This document shows, piece after piece, positions 4,162-39,273 of a DNA stretch of 41,541 bases. The stretch spans positions 1 through 41,541 of the forward strand of contig JAADGC010000198.1 in NCBI GenBank assembly GCA_013152585.1, given 5' to 3'. Made by a program: the position numbers and the translations under genes. The notes under the pieces were generated by a model, which was not told the DNA's origin, ran no database searches, and worked only from the letters and a program-made list of their open reading frames with translations. Origin of the DNA: Chloroflexota bacterium (GTDB taxonomy: Bacteria; Chloroflexota; Anaerolineae; J102). Numbering within the stretch: position 1 is the first letter of the stretch; each line of letters begins with the position of its first letter.

Positions 4162-4277
4162 CCATGAATGACACGAATTTTCACGAAAAAAGGAAAAACA
4201 CCTTCAAAATCTGGGAAAATCCGTGAATTCTGTGGCTAAAAATGCTTTGCTAAGCTGCATGTGTCATTTTCGCCAGG
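4162..4277 (+). repeat. dispersed repeat, family 2, copy 1
   Basis: A segment of the CACGAATTTTCACGAA / AATCCGTGAA type ends in CATTTTCGCCAG. It matches the reverse complement of 21651-21757. The last 58 bases are nearly identical (about three or four differences) and the rest is looser. It lies in the 288-bp gap upstream of the PiT gene, where no other gene is seen. Confidence 0.6.
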
Positions 4278-4306
4278 CTCCAGAATCTTAATTGAAGGAG
4301 TGCATT

Positions 4307-4399: not shown

Positions 4400-4600
4400 A
4401 ATTCGGGACTAGCGAGGTTGCGCCTGAGACCGACAAGCGTGTGGACGCGGACGAGCGCCGAAAGCGCGGATAAATCAGGAAACTGGGAAACGGTGTGTTG
4501 ATCGGCGTCAGGCTGAACCGGCCTGGTCACCTTGTCTACCGATTACCCAGCAGTTCCAAATTTGGCGCCAACATAGTGGACGTCCATCAACGGCTCTTCG
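4400..4600. other. intergenic DNA, nothing recognised
   Basis: Open frames exist on both strands, but their translations are low-complexity and match no family I know. The segment links the possible 30-residue peptide to the first large repeat copy. From about 4581 it shares CGTCCATCAA with the flank of the third repeat copy (39070-39079). Confidence 0.4.
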
Positions 4601-4800
4601 TTTTGCTCTCGCTGACTGAAGTCAGGCTCTTCAGGCCTGCGGCCAGGAGTCGGCCTTCGCCGACTCTCCAGGTGGCGAAGATGGGACGGCGATGGCCGAT
4701 TCCCGGCGCAAAGCGTCCAAAGAGCCCGAGCCTGCCCTCGAGTGCTGTGAAGGGTACCCTCGGCCAGCGTCAGCCCCAAAAAGGAATGTTATTCCTGGAC
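4601..4800 (+). repeat. 200-bp hairpin repeat, family 1, copy A
   Basis: First of three copies (others at 22081-22280, inverted, and 39082-39273). It begins TTTTGCTCTCGCTGACTGA and ends GTTATTCC. It holds several dyads: CTGACT-GA-AGTCAG at 4612-4625; GAGTCGGC-CTTC-GCCGACTC at 4647-4666 (8-bp stem); and the palindrome GGGTACCC. The copies share most bases. Frames through it are shadows, because the same peptide appears wherever the repeat is. Copy A lies between the PiT gene and the 3' end of the molybdopterin operon. Confidence 0.85.
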
Positions 4801-4906
4801 TCTTACATCGTTGGTTCGCCATGACGAGTGAGCAATTCCCCGCCCGCTCGCCAAGACGCACCTCCGAAAAGAGGACGCACGCCCCCATGCTTGCGCGCGC
4901 CAGCCA

Positions 4907-5596
4907 TCACAACGCTGCCGGGCTGCCATCCCCCCGCGGCCCTTCCACCCAAAAGCTGCCATCGGGTCCTACCTCTTTTTTCCATACCGGTACGATTCTT
5001 TTCAGCCGGTCAATGGCATAGCTGCATGCATCGAACATGCCCTGCCGATGCGTCGCGGCCACGGCAATCATGACGCTGGACTCGCCAACTTCCATGCGCC
5101 CGATACGATGGACGATGGCGACATCCAGGATTTGCGGCCATTTTTCTTGCACTTCGGCCCCGATCTGGGCCAGCATGGCCGTGGCCATCTCATCGTAGGC
5201 TTCGTATTCCAGGTGGTCGGTTTCCAGATCGCCGGTGGTGCCGCGCACAATGCCGGAAAAAATCACAATCGCCCCGCGATCGGGGGCGGTGAGCAAGGCC
5301 GCCAGGGTGTCGGCTGACAGGGGGTCTGGTGTGACCCAAAAACGGCGTCGCGGCTGGCCGCCAGCCACGGGCGGGAAGATGGCGACCTCATCTCCTTCGT
5401 GCAGCACGGTGTCCCAGGTAGCATAGCGTTTGTTGATGGCCACATGCAGCGCACCTTCATCGTTGAAAGCCGGCGTGTGCTGGCGCAGTTCTTTCACCAG
5501 CTCCTGCACTGTGGCGTCTTCTGCCAGCTCGAGTTCGAGGATATTTGTTTGAAAAACGTCGCGTAGGGCGGCGAATAATCTAATCTCGATTTTCAT
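4907..5596 (-). CDS. MoaD-MoaE fusion, molybdopterin synthase
   Basis: A 229-residue protein carrying both subunits of molybdopterin synthase, which adds the dithiolene sulfurs to precursor Z. Residues 1-80 are the ubiquitin-like MoaD part, ending in PPVAGG (GG at 79-80). Residues from about 84 are MoaE, with HRIGRMEVGE (163-172), the THRQ/AC/AIDRLK segment, and the active-site WKKE (206-209). The MoaD Gly-Gly that normally carries the thiocarboxylate at a free C-terminus is followed here by QPRRR, so cleavage after Gly80, as reported for mycobacterial MoaX, would be needed or the mechanism differs. The start at 5596 is chosen over the upstream ATG because GGAG precedes it. It is the last gene of the Mo/W operon. 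Confidence 0.9.
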   Translation of the reverse strand: MKIEIRLFAALRDVFQTNILELELAEDATVQELVKELRQHTPAFNDEGALHVAINKRYATWDTVLHEGDEVAIFPPVAGGQPRRRFWVTPDPLSADTLAALLTAPDRGAIVIFSGIVRGTTGDLETDHLEYEAYDEMATAMLAQIGAEVQEKWPQILDVAIVHRIGRMEVGESSVMIAVAATHRQGMFDACSYAIDRLKRIVPVWKKEVGPDGSFWVEGPRGDGSPAAL

Positions 5597-5646
5597 GGTA
5601 TCGTTCTCCAATGCGTTGTATTCCGTCACGTCTGACGTGATGGGGC

Positions 5647-16179: not shown

Positions 16180-16353
16180 GCGCTATCCGGGGCATGGTTC
16201 AGATGAGACCTTTGGCTGCACTGAAAAAAACGCTCGCCAAGCCGCCCGGGTGCACAGCGTTTTTAACGCCAAGCGCAAAGTTTCTGCCGCAGATGTCATT
16301 TTCGCCAGACGCCAGTTTCATTCCTGAATTCACCAGACAAGGAACCATTCCCC

Positions 16354-20640: not shown

Positions 20641-21639
20641 ATGCGACTGTATTTTCTCGGAATTGACGGGCTTGCCACCAGCATCCTCTTTGCTCCCCAA
20701 AATCAGGGGCGCTGGCCCAACTTTGCGCATCTGTTCGCGCAAAGCCAGCACGGCATCTGCGATTGCGAGGCTGAGTATCAATTTACCGGCCCTTCGTGGA
20801 CTTCGATTTATACCGGCCAGCCTGCCGACGTTCATGGTCTGAAAGACCTGTGGGGACGTCCCCGCAACGGCAGTAAAGCTTTTGTGAATGTACAAGAAGC
20901 GTATGTGTGGGACATCCTCAATCAGCATGGGCTTTCTACGGGGGTCATTACCATGCCCATCACATACCCGGCGCGGCGTGTGCAGGGCTGGATGATCGCC
21001 GGTTTTCCCTCGCCCAAGCTCTCTGTCACCGGGCCGGTGTCTGTCCCCCCCGACTTTCTGGTCGATCACAGCGAGGCCATTCGCCGCACCCAACGCATCC
21101 CCGGCATCGGCTATGCCTGGCATGATCAAATGAGCCTGGCCGAAGATGTGGAACATCTCAAGCAGGTGGAATTGCGGAAGGCCCAGTTGGTTCCACAATG
21201 GTTGGCCGCCTCCCCGGTCGATGCCTTGTTTGTGCAGTATTCGAGCCTGGACAGAGTGGGACATGAGCTGAACAACTATGCTCGCCGTGGCCAGCCCTTC
21301 GATTATAGCCATGTGCACACTATGTACGACTGGTTTGATGCGGAGTTGTTGCCGCAATTGCTGGCGATTGAGGCCGATTATTTGATAGTGGTCTCGGATC
21401 ATGGATGGCCGTTGTGGGCCGAAGTGCAGGGAGGACACGATCAGCATGGCACCTATGTTTTGCGCGGCCCCGATGTTCCCGCCGGGATGCGTCTGGATGG
21501 CCGCAACATCGACATCATGCCCACCACTTTAGATTTACTTGGATTCGAGCCCCCGGCAGTGACCGGGCACAGCATCTTGCTGCGCACCAGCGAACTCGAT
21601 CTCATCGACGAGCATCTGGAAGGGCTCGGGTATCTTTAG
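20641..21639 (+). CDS. alkaline-phosphatase-superfamily phosphodiesterase
   Basis: A 332-residue member of the type I phosphodiesterase/nucleotide pyrophosphatase family. Metal ligands and nucleophile are recognisable: D in FLGIDG near the N-terminus, Thr/Ser in FTGPSWTSIYTG, D and H in SSLDRVGHE, DH in VVSDHGW, and H in GGHDQHGTY. No signal peptide is seen, so it should be cytoplasmic. It may hydrolyse phosphodiesters, phosphonates or nucleotide-sugar-like substrates. Its position after the sulfation genes suggests a part in that pathway, but the substrate is not readable. Confidence 0.83.
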   Translation: MRLYFLGIDGLATSILFAPQNQGRWPNFAHLFAQSQHGICDCEAEYQFTGPSWTSIYTGQPADVHGLKDLWGRPRNGSKAFVNVQEAYVWDILNQHGLSTGVITMPITYPARRVQGWMIAGFPSPKLSVTGPVSVPPDFLVDHSEAIRRTQRIPGIGYAWHDQMSLAEDVEHLKQVELRKAQLVPQWLAASPVDALFVQYSSLDRVGHELNNYARRGQPFDYSHVHTMYDWFDAELLPQLLAIEADYLIVVSDHGWPLWAEVQGGHDQHGTYVLRGPDVPAGMRLDGRNIDIMPTTLDLLGFEPPAVTGHSILLRTSELDLIDEHLEGLGYL

Positions 21640-21650
21640 TTACTGAAATC

Positions 21651-21757
21651 TGGCGAAAATGACACCTGCAGCTTAGCAAAGCATTATTAGCCACAGATTT
21701 CACGGATTTTGCAGATGTTTTCCTGTCTTTTCCGTGAAAATCTGTGTGAATCCGTGG
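21651..21757 (-). repeat. dispersed repeat, family 2, copy 2
   Basis: The reverse complement of this segment matches 4162-4277. The best part runs from AATCCGTGAA through TGCTTTGCTAAGCTGCA to CATTTTCGCCA with only three or four changes. Shorter traces of its end (TTTTCRCCAGA) occur at 16294-16310 and about 20499-20510. The wider family is of the CACAGATTTCACGGATT type. Confidence 0.6.
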
Positions 21758-22080: not shown

Positions 22081-22280
22081 GTTTAGGAATAACATCCCTT
22101 TTTAGGGCTGACGCTGGCCGAGGGAACCCTTCACTGCGCTCGAGGGCAGGCTCGGGCTCTTTGGACGCTTTGCGCCGGGAATCGGCCATCGCCGTCCCCT
22201 CTTCGCCCCATGGAGAGTCGGCGAAGGCCGTCCTCTGGCCGCAGGCCTGAAGAGCCTGACTTCAGTCAGCGAGAGCAAAA
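22081..22280 (-). repeat. 200-bp hairpin repeat, family 1, copy B (inverted)
   Basis: Copy B of the element also found at 4601-4800 and 39082-39273, here on the minus strand. It keeps the CTGACT-GA-AGTCAG dyad, but the 8-bp GAGTCGGC stem is broken (one arm reads GAGGACGGC) and GGGTACCC has become GGGTTCCC. Stem changes are not compensated. It fills most of the 331-bp gap before obgE. Confidence 0.85.
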
Positions 22281-32561: not shown

Positions 32562-35500
32562 ATGCGTCTGCAAGACTATCCCCGCCCCCCTGATGATAAC
32601 GGGATTGGTATGCACTGGAGTGGCGGCAATCCCGGCGCCGTCGGTGCATCAGTCCTGCGCCAGCGATGGATCCCAGAGCTGCAACGCATGGGCGTCAAAT
32701 GGGTGAAATTCTTACATGATGGCGGGCTCGACTTCGCCGAAATGCTGCTGGCAGCCGACATCATGCCCGTCGTGCGCCTGTATCGCTTTCGACCCAACTC
32801 CACCGACATCGAAAAGGCCACCCTCAGTCAAAAAGAAATCGACTATCTCGATGAATATGTGGCCCGCGGGGTGCGCTATTTTGAATTCAACAACGAACCG
32901 GAACTGCACGGCGAGTGGGAAGGGGGGCAGGTGCCATCCGGCGCCATCGATTATGTGACCAAAGCCGCCATCCGCGACATGGAAACGATCCTGAAACACG
33001 GCGGCTACCCGGCTGTGCCCGCCACCGCCATCAGCACCAAGTGGGATCTCATCGCCAAGATCATCGAACTTGGGGGCCGGCATCTATTCGACGAACCCGT
33101 GTGGCTGGCACTGCACAACTATGATCTCAATCATCCCCTCGATTATCCGTACGATGATGTCAACCAGAAGGGCTTGCAGCTCAGCCAGGACGAGTACGAT
33201 CTCCTGGGGCACGACGCCTGGGCGGGCGGGCAATGGGGCCAGCGCAGCCTGGAATTTGTGAACCAGCAACGCCAGCAAGGCGCCAATCCTGGCAATACCA
33301 TTCACGACGACCCCTCCGGTTTTCGCGCCTACGAGCGCCTGGGCGACCTTTGCCGGCAACATCTGGGGCGCTATTTGCCTATCCTCTCCACCGAAAATGG
33401 CCCCCTGGTGGGCGAAGCCGACGATCCCCGCTATCCCACCACCACCGCCGCCACCCATGCCGAAAAGGCCGTGGACCAGGCCAAAATCATCATGGGAACC
33501 AGCGAACGCTATCTTGCCGCGCCTCCCCATTACTTCTGCACCGCTTTTTGGCTCATGGGCAATACCGTCCTGCTGGCCAATGGCTGGGAACAGCACGCCT
33601 GGTTTTCGGACACCTGGCCCGGCGGCAAATTACCGGCTGTCGAGGCCCTGGCTGCCCTGCCCAAACAGCCGCGGGCCGATGCCCAGGCATCTCCCACACC
33701 CGAGCAGCCCACGCACGATGACCCCGGAGGCACGCCCACCGGGAACCAAGGCGGCAGTATTCGTGGCACACTCAGCGGCCATGCTCACACCACGGTCATC
33801 CTGCGCTCAACCACCTACGCCGACCAAACCGAAACCGATGCCCAGGGCGCCTTCAGCTTTAGCGACGTGCCGCCAGGCGTGTATCGGCTGTCGGTGCCGG
33901 CCGCCAGCATTGTGCGCAACAACATCACCCTGGCCGCCCAACAGCAATTGACTCTCGATCTTGCCGATTCCACGTCGCCCAGCCCGGCACCAGCAGGCTC
34001 GTGGCAGGCCGACATCCGCGATGCCGGTGTTTCCCCCGGCTTTGGCATCATCCGCCTCAGTGTCGAAGGTCGCCTGCACCTGCCCGTGCACATCAGCGCC
34101 CCGGGCTGGGAAGGCTACACCCGCCAAACCGGTAGCAAAACCGAATATGGCCCCTATGCCCTCGAGTTCGCCCCCCTGGGCGCCGGGCATTACACCCTGC
34201 AAGTCGATGAAATCGATGCCCAGACAGAGGTCGATCTCGATGCCAATCAGATCCTCTTCGTCACATTCCGGCCGTCTGCCGAAAGCCAGCCCGATACGCA
34301 ACCCGCGGCCAACAGCGTGATTCAGGGCCAGGTCACGCAGGGCGCCGGTCTCACCATCATACTCACCGGTCCCCAAAGCGAATTCGACACCCAGGTAGCG
34401 GCGGACGAAAGCTATCGCTTCCCGCGCCTGTCCGCCGGCACCTACAGCCTGCGCATCCCCGGCACCGATTTAAGGCGCAGCGGATTGGTCATGGATGGCA
34501 GCAACCAACGCACGGCCAATTTCATCCTCACGCCGTCCAACGAACCGGCGGCGCAAAGCGTGATCAGCGGCAGCGTGAGCAACGGCGCCGGCCATACCCT
34601 CATCTTGCGTGGCCCTGATATCGAATTGAGCCAGACCATCGGCGCCGACGAGCAATACCGCTTTGACAGCCTGCCTGCCGGCACCTATCGGCTGGCCATC
34701 GAAGGCACCGATCTCCGGCGCAGCGGGCTCGTCATGGATGGCCAAAACGAACGCACGGCCAATTTTACCATCGGCCAGCCTACCCAGCAGGGCATGATTA
34801 TTGGTCAGGTGCACGGGGGCGCCCAATCGCAGGCCTTGTTGCGGTCGACAGACGGTGGCGAGTGGGTGCAACTGGTGGGGGATGACGAGCACTTTCGTTT
34901 CGAAGGCATCGCCGCCGGTGCCTACACCCTCACCATCTTTACCCCCAACGCCGATCTCGTGCGCAACCTGCAACTCGCCCCCGGCCAGACCATCGAGCTC
35001 GATCTCGATGCCACGGTCACGGTGCCCGCAGATCCCACCCCCAAGCCCGGTAACTGGCAGTTCAAGATCGAAGATGGGGGGCCGGGGCCCGGTTTTGCCG
35101 TCATCCGCGTGCGTATCGACGGTCAACCGCGGCTGCCCGTGCGCATCTGGACACAGGGTTGGGCGGGCATGGTGCGACAAATTGGCGAAAAAGCCGAATA
35201 CGGCGAATTTGTCTGCGAATTCGCCCCCCTGGGCAGTGGCGATTATTGGATCGAACCGGATGAATTGGGGGTGGTAGCGCAAGTCCACGCCGACGGCAGC
35301 CGCGTGATTTGGGTCACCTTCAGTCCCGAATCCACGCCGGCCGAATCGCCGCCGCCTAAAACCATCGATCATTATGTGCTGGTGGGCGCTCTGCCCCTCG
35401 ACAAAGTCAGCTATGTGACCGCTCTGGCCTACATGGCTCGTTTTCAGCCCGCGGTTGGCACCAGCATCAGCGAGGCCATGCGAGCTCGCCGCGTATCGAT

Positions 35501-37347: not shown

Positions 37348-39063
37348 ATGCTCAAAGAACTGCGCGTTCGCAATTTCGCCATTATCGATGACCTTCAGGT
37401 CATGTTTCATGCCAGTTTTACGGTGCTGACCGGCGAAACCGGCGCCGGCAAATCGATCATCATCGATGCCATCGAACTGCTGTTGGGCGCCAAGGCCGAA
37501 CAATCGGCCGTGCGCGCCGGCGCCAGCATAGCCAGTGTCGAAGGCATTTTCGAGCTTGCAGGGGATATCGGGGCTGAGGTGCAGCAGCTTTTGCAGGCCG
37601 ACGGCCTGGAAAACGACGACAACTGGCTGATCCTGGCCCGCGACATCCGCCGCGGGGGACGCAGCGTGGCCCGCATCAATGGCCGCGCCGTCTCGCAGCG
37701 CCTGCTGGCTGATATCGGGGGGCGGTTGGTTGATATTCATGGACAGGGGGAACATTTATCCTTGCTGCGCCTGCGCAACCACATCGACTTGCTCGACCGC
37801 TATGCTGAACTCAGCCAGCCACGGGCCCACATCGCGGCTCAGGTGGACACCCTGGCTACTGTGCGTCGGCACCTGGAAACGCTGCGTCGCGACGCTCGCG
37901 AGTTGGCTCGCCGCATTGACCTGCTCAGCTATCAGGTGGAGGAAATCGACGGCGCCCAGTTGCAACCGGGCGAAGAGGAGGCGCTGGAGGCCGAGCGGCG
38001 ACGTCTGTCCAATGCCGAGACGCTGGCGAACCAAACCACCCTGCTGCAGGCCCTGTTTGACACCGACAACGACGAGCTGCCCTCCATGCTCGACCTCATG
38101 GGCGAAGCTGTGGCGCGGCTGGAAAAACTGGCGGGCATCGATCCCGATCTGGCAGAAGCCCTCAGTCAGGCGCAAGACTTGTTCGAGCGTATGACGGATT
38201 TGTCACGCGAGATGGGCCATTATGCCGACACCGTGGCCTATGACCCCGCGCGCCTGGTCGAGGTGGAAGAACGCCTGGACCTGATCTATCAATTCAAACG
38301 CAAATATGGCGACAGCATCCCCGAGATCATTGCCTTTGGCGAGCGCGCTGGCCAGGAGCTGGCGTTGATCGCCGATAGCGAAACGCGCAGCGCCGAACTG
38401 GAAGCACAGGAACAACATCTTTTACAGAGCATTGGCGCCGCCGCCGCCGAGCTTTCGGCGGCCCGCCAACAGGCCGGTCAGTTGTTGGCCCAGGCCATCG
38501 AGGAAGAATTGCAGGATCTGCGCATGAGCGGCGCGCGGGTAGCCGTCGAAATCCAGCAACGGCCGCATCAACAGGGATGTTTTGTGGGGGATGCGCGCTT
38601 TGCTTTCGATGCCACGGGGATCGATCAGGTGCAATTCCTGGTCTCGGCGAACCCGGGTGAACCGCTGATGCCACTGGTCAAAGTAGCCAGCGGCGGTGAG
38701 ACGGCCCGCCTGATGCTGGCCCTGAAGAATGTCTTATCCCGGGCAGACGACACGCCCACCCTGATTTTCGATGAAATCGATCAGGGGATCGGGGGGCGTG
38801 TGGGCGCGATTGTGGGGCGCAAGCTGGCCGATCTGGCGCAAGCACATCAGGTATTGTGTGTGACCCATCTGCCGCAAATCGCCGCTTATGCCAATCATCA
38901 TCTGGCCGTGAGCAAGGGCATGGAGGCCGACCGCACCGTGACGCGGTTGCAGGTACTGGAGGGTGCATCCCGCGTGGCCGAGCTGGCCGCCATGCTGGGA
39001 GCGCCCAGCGAGACTGGCCGCCAATCGGCGCAGGAATTGCTGGTCGAGGCCGGGCGGGGATAA
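37348..39063 (+). CDS. recN: DNA repair protein RecN
   Basis: A 571-residue SMC-like ATPase of double-strand-break repair. FAIIDDL and Walker A GETGAGKSIIIDAIELLLG open the protein. Two long coiled-coil arms follow. The C-terminal head carries the signature VASGGETARLMLALK and Walker B IFDEIDQGIGGRVG. Sequence from about residue 375 to 425 is Ala/Gln-rich coiled coil. It begins 33 bp after the B-box gene. Confidence 0.95.
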   Translation: MLKELRVRNFAIIDDLQVMFHASFTVLTGETGAGKSIIIDAIELLLGAKAEQSAVRAGASIASVEGIFELAGDIGAEVQQLLQADGLENDDNWLILARDIRRGGRSVARINGRAVSQRLLADIGGRLVDIHGQGEHLSLLRLRNHIDLLDRYAELSQPRAHIAAQVDTLATVRRHLETLRRDARELARRIDLLSYQVEEIDGAQLQPGEEEALEAERRRLSNAETLANQTTLLQALFDTDNDELPSMLDLMGEAVARLEKLAGIDPDLAEALSQAQDLFERMTDLSREMGHYADTVAYDPARLVEVEERLDLIYQFKRKYGDSIPEIIAFGERAGQELALIADSETRSAELEAQEQHLLQSIGAAAAELSAARQQAGQLLAQAIEEELQDLRMSGARVAVEIQQRPHQQGCFVGDARFAFDATGIDQVQFLVSANPGEPLMPLVKVASGGETARLMLALKNVLSRADDTPTLIFDEIDQGIGGRVGAIVGRKLADLAQAHQVLCVTHLPQIAAYANHHLAVSKGMEADRTVTRLQVLEGASRVAELAAMLGAPSETGRQSAQELLVEAGRG

Positions 39064-39081: not shown

Positions 39082-39273
39082 TTTTGCTCTCGCTGACTGA
39101 AGTCAGGCTCTTCAGGCCTGCGGCCAGGAGTCGGCCTTCGCCGACTCTCCATGTGGCGAAGACCGGACGGATTCCCGCCGCAAAGCGTCCAAAGAAGCCC
39201 GAGCCTGCCCTCGAGCGCAGTGAAGGGTACCCTCGGCCAGCGTCAGCCCTAAAAAGGGCTGTTATTCCAGGAC
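39082..39273 (+). repeat. 200-bp hairpin repeat, family 1, copy C
   Basis: Third copy of the element at 4601-4800 and 22081-22280. It retains the perfect 8-bp GAGTCGGC-CTTC-GCCGACTC hairpin and the GGGTACCC palindrome, and lacks about eight bases near GATGGCC. Like copy A it is preceded by GCGTCCATCAA. It begins 18 bases after recN. Confidence 0.85.

Follow-up and report, generated by a model that had tools for sequence, protein, structure and literature searches.

MITEs, which are moved by DDE transposases, and REP/REPIN sequences, which are moved by HUH transposases, are usually treated as separate worlds. Palindrome-associated elements (PATEs) are non-autonomous and keep both ends of an IS200-type element. 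PATEs are derived from IS200/IS605 (PMC3119063, PMC7290912). The bacterial MITEs listed in a section of PMC3733652 include RUP, NEMIS, Nezha, and ERIC, alongside GTAG repeats, with Chloroflexi among the hosts. For REPINs, a passage of PMC3116915 proposes, as one possibility, derivation from palindromes flanking an IS200-like element. In the excerpts consulted of PMC6006769, a small class of TnpA-Y1 transposases (class 3) has "atypical secondary structures," with high-copy hairpins that flank IS200-like genes, and is placed between IS and REPtron. This class carries an NHVH motif and Y----Q and occurs mainly in Planctomycetes, Acidobacteria, and Proteobacteria, according to the same excerpts.

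Here, we analyze a repeat in a 41,541-nucleotide stretch of DNA (hereafter, the window) from a Chloroflexota bacterium of the class Anaerolineae. The window corresponds to contig C250 in a genome of 3.80 Mb and 251 contigs (hereafter, the host genome). The repeat resembles bacterial MITEs in its size, terminal inverted repeats (TIRs), short target duplication, lack of coding capacity, many intergenic copies, and transposase-bearing relatives with the same ends. Unlike them, it carries a structured and apparently HUH-derived module that is common to MITEs of other TIR types. As with the REPINs and their RAYT genes in the passages of PMC3116915, the module has two inverted hairpin sets and a spacer, occurs both in tandem and dispersed, and in relatives lies beside a specific Y1 gene (a trait not seen at the two Y1 genes of the host genome). 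It differs from REPINs in having three hairpins per half and no GTRG foot, and the transposase differs from RAYT in scoring around or above the IS200 cutoff and not reaching the RAYT cutoff. Class 3, as excerpted from PMC6006769, likewise has IS200-like Y1 genes with atypical hairpins of high copy number on their flanks, but the genes described here come from Anaerolineae and mostly have DHVH and Y---Q (YINGQ), which sets them apart from that description. At the level of description, the likeness to PATEs lies in left and right IS200-type ends without tnpA (compare loci L317, L313, and L330); nesting within MITEs is not a trait that we can ascribe to PATEs.

We consider it likely that the repeat is a cassette of HUH-derived hairpins lodged within a MITE of the DDE type and that, in the host genome, it was spread by the outer ends. 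The passages of PMC3116915, PMC6006769, and PMC3733652 contain no nested arrangement of this kind, and PMC10969869 makes no mention of ISAzo13, nested, IS200, Chloroflex, or REPIN. Among titles and abstract openings, we found no paper on an ISAzo13 MITE, and one paper contains both terms; searches on nested bacterial MITEs, on Anaerolineae with palindromes and insertion sequences, and on RAYT with Chloroflex brought up no title or abstract opening that named the element.

Copies in the window and across the genome

The observation is real, larger, and more layered than first described. The preliminary description reported nearly the same element at three sites of the window, and both the sequences at these sites and a repeat search bore this out. 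Copies A and B form an inverted pair (94% identity over 197 nt), and copies A and C match in two stretches, at 97% over 92 nt and at 91% over 81 nt. All three contain the 6-bp dyad CTGACT/AGTCAG; the GAGTCGGC hairpin is carried by A and C, as had been noted, and B has GAGGACGG...GCCGACTC instead. The features are as follows, with core scores from the covariance model R1 described below.

4576..4806, plus strand: copy A, whole element; ends GTGGACGTCCA and ...GACTCTTAC; flanks ATA / ATC, non-identical
4576..4605, plus strand: copy A, 5' TIR, ISAzo13-type
4776..4806, minus strand: copy A, 3' TIR; the minus strand reads GTAAGAGTCCAGGAATAACATTCCTTTTTGG
4610..4742, plus strand: copy A, six-hairpin core; R1, 97.4 bits
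22075..22305, minus strand: copy B, whole element; flanks TTG / TGA, non-identical
22139..22271, minus strand: copy B, six-hairpin core; R1, 88.6 bits
39064..39279, plus strand: copy C, whole element; flanks TAA / TTA
39091..39215, plus strand: copy C, six-hairpin core with an internal deletion; R1, 69.1 bits

Many copies had been predicted for the genome, and the union of our searches gave 81 places on 70 contigs. At least 40 places were found by blastn (40 scored of 169 candidates), 62 with a 5' 23-mer allowing up to 3 mismatches, and 43 with a 3' 25-mer; the controls for the two oligomers (reversed for the 5' one) gave 0. For at least 31 of the 81 places, a contig end lies within 250 bp. 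Single copies may hence be counted twice, and whole copies are fewer than 81. This assembly breaks at the repeat, which occupies many of its contig ends.

The stop codon of recN coincides with the 5' flanking TAA of copy C (39061-39063). In a rough open reading frame (ORF) survey of 97 element places, fragments counted, the neighbors were 89 gene 3' ends and 62 gene 5' ends (medians, 39 and 70 bp); the ORF calls were mechanical, so the excess of 3' ends is suggestive at best. A bias of this kind would follow from insertion at TAA stop codons.

The window holds other features as well. A second dispersed repeat of ~65 to 80 bp (AAATCTGTGGCTAAAAATGCTTTGCTAAGCTGCATGTGTCATTTTCGCCAGACTCCAG) lies at 4205-4300 (+), 16286-16328 (+), and 21635-21719 (-); it occurs in at least 40 places of the genome, and two of its window copies are within 450 bp of the six-hairpin repeat. 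A single ORF at 4907-5629 (-) fuses MoaD-like (ThiS) and MoaE domains. Two 129-nt direct repeats, 74% alike, lie at 34401-34529 and 34644-34772 in an ORF of 1026 amino acids with weak S-layer/adhesin-like matches.

Ends and flanking triplets

To find the ends and any target-site duplications, as the preliminary description had suggested, we aligned the genomic copies, lining them up on hairpin 1 and the 3' part. All ends align. The true unit measures 216 to 231 bp, holds no transposase gene, and has imperfect TIRs of ~30 bp in a CTWAG context. Its consensus ends are TWA-GTGAACGTCYARAAATTACYTTTCGTTTTG on the 5' side and CCTAAAAAGGAAAGTTATTCCTGGACGCTTAC-TWA on the 3' side, mutually inverted over about 30 bp, mismatches included. 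The ends first proposed, TTTTGCTC and GTTATTCC, therefore fall short, as the conserved unit extends 18 to 25 bp further 5' and 6 bp further 3', and the GTCCATCAA stretch of A and C, taken at first for a flank, belongs to the TIR. A pattern placed inside the TIRs occurred at 80 places (reversed control, 0).

Among the 28 copies with both ends readable by eye (triplets entered by hand), 14 had identical flanking triplets, where 5.6 were expected by permutation of sides (P = 1e-5). The agreeing pairs include TTT/TTT, TCT/TCT, and TTG/TTG; as these three are not TWA, they argue for duplication rather than target preference alone. At L062 in the relative G006, an empty paralogous site has TTA once, and the filled site has TTA on both sides. 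Together with the TIRs and the transposase family with matching ends described below, the above-chance triplets and the empty site uphold the earlier suggestion of a non-autonomous mobile repeat. Exact triplet agreement is absent in copies A, B, and C, as it is in 14 of the 28 copies genome-wide, which counts against the nested explanation. So do two copies of the host genome, C51 and C221:2781, in which the 5' TIR is apparently replaced in part by target-like sequence.

At the same two sites (G000 C51:8298 and C221:2781), a stretch identical to the 3' flank, of about 14 and 11 nt, respectively, replaces the 5' end and is longer than the usual triplet. Three further loci, L200 (G000 C150:29260), L201 (C195:1333), and L203 (C80:20778), have an ISAzo13-type left end with another filling and without the six-hairpin core.

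Many dispersed intergenic copies would also be expected of a chromosome-organizing site, such as one for a nucleoid protein, for gyrase, or at a domain boundary. Nothing in our results points to such a site; TIRs, matching triplets, and truncated copies are marks of mobility, and they make this explanation exceedingly improbable.

ISAzo13-family elements with matching ends

The search for a transposase with matching ends, also suggested in the preliminary description, led to elements of the ISAzo13 family in the host genome and in relatives. The end patterns alone led directly to no transposase. IS66 elements have GTAA ends and an 8-bp duplication, and elements of the IS5/Harbinger group have a TWA target. 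These two groups were considered first; the flanks of the repeat lack an 8-bp duplication, and ISAzo13, tried next, matched.

Within the class, 44 of 298 genomes match the Pfam family PF07592 (ISAzo13); one gene was found in the host genome and three matches, all belonging to one element, in G010. Out of the 23 positions of the end consensus, the two ends matched at 22/21 in L211, 22/20 in L229, 21/19 in L222, and 20/19 in L210 of the host genome, whereas shuffled sequences reached a maximum of 16 to 19. L211 is flanked by TAA on both sides. Elsewhere in the class, the ends of ISAzo13 elements are weaker but similar, and some of the 30 scored loci have none above background. Elements with both ends measure 1.36 to 1.45 kb. 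Only 5 of 10 such elements have agreeing flanks (read by eye), and the ends in the host genome are more diverged than those of relatives; both observations count against nesting. We found no published duplication length for ISAzo13 in the literature consulted.

The same ends thus bound insertion sequences of the ISAzo13 family in the host genome and in its relatives, and the outer layer of the repeat is very probably a MITE of this family, judging from its ends. The only ISAzo13 gene found in the host genome is interrupted at eight consecutive A and continues in a second frame (L210, about 1476), through either a frameshift mutation or programmed slippage; this split, too, counts against nesting. 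An active ISAzo13 source in the host genome is therefore putative at most.

Fold and covariation of the interior

The interior is a separate module of ~130 nt with six hairpins. It recurs in relatives of the same family at about 73% identity, framed by different ends. We aligned 29 copies from relatives and none from the host genome (alignment A1). These are 29 of 43 rows: 4 with the same core in reverse orientation, 3 that were truncated or rearranged, and 7 with insertions were left out, and 3 of the 29 were trimmed. RNAalifold gave the hairpins, and two pairings were added by hand. The fold begins with hairpin 1, continues with a closing helix (P1) round hairpin 2, an inner helix (P2, round hairpins 3 and 4), and hairpin 5, and ends with hairpin 6.

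In the resulting 43-pair structure, 94.6% of cells are paired. Changes on both sides were observed at 12 of the 43 pairs (72 cells), compared with 7.8 pairs (26.1 cells) in shuffled controls and 1 to 4 pairs (2 to 10 cells) when partners were slid. The covariation test proposed at the outset thus found compensatory changes in excess of both controls. The statement that stem changes are not compensated was wrong in general: 12 pairs change on both sides across the relatives' copies, and copy B is the exception. A measure of further pair types showed no excess (22 versus 24.9 in shuffles). Double changes are absent from P1, and of all helices P2 is paired least well (76% of cells). There are 15 G-U cells and 34 A-C cells, with 11 of the A-C cells in one pair. 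Wobble pairs are hence not enriched, which offers no indication of an RNA on the given strand; the pattern fits a DNA fold without proving it. The earlier preference for DNA over RNA remains the better guess on this ground.

A covariance model (R1) was built, with the host genome absent from its training set. Both strands match R1, as the fold is nearly its own mirror image. Relative to A1, the loop of hairpin 6 is about 26 nt longer in the lineage of the window. Insertions in the core were seen in 7 of the 43 rows, among them L175, L245, and L261 in the loop of hairpin 5 and L260, L265, and L268 near hairpins 2 and 3. Several of these sit at hairpin tips, as if loops were targets.

A conserved structured RNA, cis-regulatory or a terminator, that was copied around could account for the strong covariation and for intergenic copies with more neighboring 3' ends than 5' ends (89 and 62 in the rough survey). 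We hold it to be very improbable, given that the core has no Rfam match in the window or in three relatives, that G-U cells are outnumbered by A-C cells, that the fold is near-symmetric with both strands matching the model, and that the context of the copies varies. A weak Acido-Lenti-1 match in L062 was located elsewhere, outside the core.

The resemblance to REP/BIME sequences proposed in the preliminary description is partial. The interior does resemble a REPIN beside a Y1 transposase, but it lacks the GTRG foot at the 5' base of the hairpin by which canonical REPs are defined, and we reject a canonical REP for this reason. GTRG occurs in 6 of 29 rows, at hairpin 4 only, and nowhere else on either strand; for hairpin 6, most of the minus-strand foot lies outside the alignment.

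A Y1 transposase clade beside the core

We sought PF01797 genes in ten genomes and ran R1 on those loci. The Y1 genes adjacent to the core are distinct in sequence, typically with ELYVHLVWATWDRLP, DHVH, and YINGQ (alignment A2). In a scan with NCBIfam models, four members scored 54.9 to 68.5 with IS200 (NF033573; cutoff, 55) and 20 to 28 bits with RAYT (NF047646; cutoff, 80), and so they are not RAYT. A class-wide search with A2 left a gap in scores between 162 and 139 bits, and we defined the clade as 160 bits or more.

R1 matched at 17 of 18 clade loci and at 1 of 12 other Y1 loci (P = 2.5e-6), the 30 loci tested being the A2 matches newly given loci. Three of the 17 matches are weak or unusual (L337, E = 8.5e-4; L341, E = 2.5e-5; L339, very GC-rich). 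Counted by genome, R1 was present in 13 of 18 genomes with the clade and in 24 of 181 without it (P = 1.9e-7, assuming that both draws of 199 genomes were identical). Other Y1 genes showed no link to R1 by genome (9/54 versus 13/125; P = 0.18). These association tests ignore shared ancestry. The 5 clade genomes that lack R1 and the 24 genomes that have it without the clade count against a nested origin; in one genome with R1 (G064), Y1_Tnp was not found.

The arrangement of hairpins round the clade genes varies. Hairpins 1 to 3 precede the Y1 gene and hairpins 4 to 6 follow it at L317, L313, and L330. At L326, L327, and L328, the whole core lies upstream of the gene and only hairpins 4 to 6 lie downstream, and at L331 and L333 to L336, cores are found around the gene, with arrays in several. 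The split hairpins at L317, L313, and L330 suggest that the core is a fusion of the two ends and that its spacer once held the gene. The clean layout with the gene in the spacer was seen at these three loci, which were read closely, and not at all loci, which again counts against nesting. With good probability, then, the inner module would be the joined ends of an IS200-type element without its transposase, similar to a REPIN or a PATE.

A family of REP, BIME, or REPIN sequences that depends solely on a Y1 transposase, of RAYT or IS200 type, for its movement and has incidental outer inverted repeats would explain why the core flanks the Y1 clade and folds like inverted REP doublets, and the host genome does have two Y1 genes (L306 and L315). 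Neither of these has a core nearby, however, and the clade was not found in the host genome, where its best match (92 bits) falls below the score gap; as the assembly is 96% complete, the absence of the clade is likely but not certain. Since, in addition, the TIR and TWA context coincide with ISAzo13 ends and the GTRG foot is not conserved, we regard this explanation as quite improbable and continue to favor a Y1-derived core inside an ISAzo13-type shell.

Distribution of the core and its shells in Anaerolineae

R1 matched 37 of 199 genomes of the class at E values up to 1e-6; the E values are rough, the search covered the class only, and the 162 genomes without matches are its sole negative control. 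In a comparison of bit scores over 22 sources, scores reached 108 bits in G029, a genome of another family, in which the matches form tandem arrays. A scan of genome contigs for the core pattern gave 27 loci, all in Anaerolineae or Chloroflexi metagenome-assembled genomes, from a contig collection that may omit the host genome. Some arrays in G029, e.g., at C1 316500-319300 (L157), are long tandem six-hairpin arrays with conserved linkers.

The core copies of family relatives with usable flanks numbered 32. Their shells were ISAzo13-type TIRs in 11, GGGTGYGTCC-type TIRs (of two subtypes) in 12, and TTGACTGACAAA-type TIRs in 2, and none was seen in 7; in 6 of the 32, e.g., L066, L170 (assigned by eye), and L255, the ends scored below or near the shuffled 95% level though the motif is visible. 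In related Anaerolineae, besides forming tandem arrays, the module sits in MITEs of two or more further TIR types.

These shells bear on whether the repeat is simply an ordinary MITE of the ISAzo13 family, with a hairpin-rich filling that did not arise separately. Palindromic fillings are common in MITEs, and TIRs, triplet agreement, and copy number would suffice for spread in this genome. The same filling with the same boundaries nevertheless occurs in MITEs with other TIRs, in tandem arrays without TIRs, and beside one Y1 clade, and we find an ordinary MITE an unlikely explanation.

A likely nested arrangement and its implications

In the nested arrangement that we prefer, an ISAzo13-type (DDE) transposase acting in trans would recognize the ~30-bp TIRs, and the unit would insert at (C)TWA(G) with duplication of TWA. 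The inner layer would consist of the left end (hairpins 1 to 3) joined to the right end (hairpins 4 to 6) of an IS200-type element of the one Y1 clade, and the spacer that separates hairpins 3 and 4 would have lost the Y1 (HUH) transposase gene. In genomes with the clade, folded single-stranded DNA is probably the form in which the module moves. The host genome, where the clade was not found, appears to have had the module spread by the outer MITE ends. Copy number, ends, above-chance triplet agreement, the matching ends of ISAzo13 elements, covariation, and the association with one Y1 clade were observed directly; we infer movement by either transposase, the sequence of events, and that the folded form is single-stranded DNA.

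A bolder and tentative idea, to which we give somewhat less than even odds, is that the cassette constitutes a unit of selection, outlasting its transposase by switching between unrelated vehicles, its HUH partner in some Anaerolineae and DDE-type MITEs of at least three TIR types in others. If the idea is true, a single folded DNA module is spread by two transposition systems of unrelated chemistry. The Y1 clade and a substrate are now named for in vitro tests. A single covarying fold is found in MITE and REP/REPIN settings alike, across several genomes, and persists where the HUH transposase was not found. This opens the question of whether the fold itself is selected, for replication, protection, or transcription, or is a mere hitchhiker.
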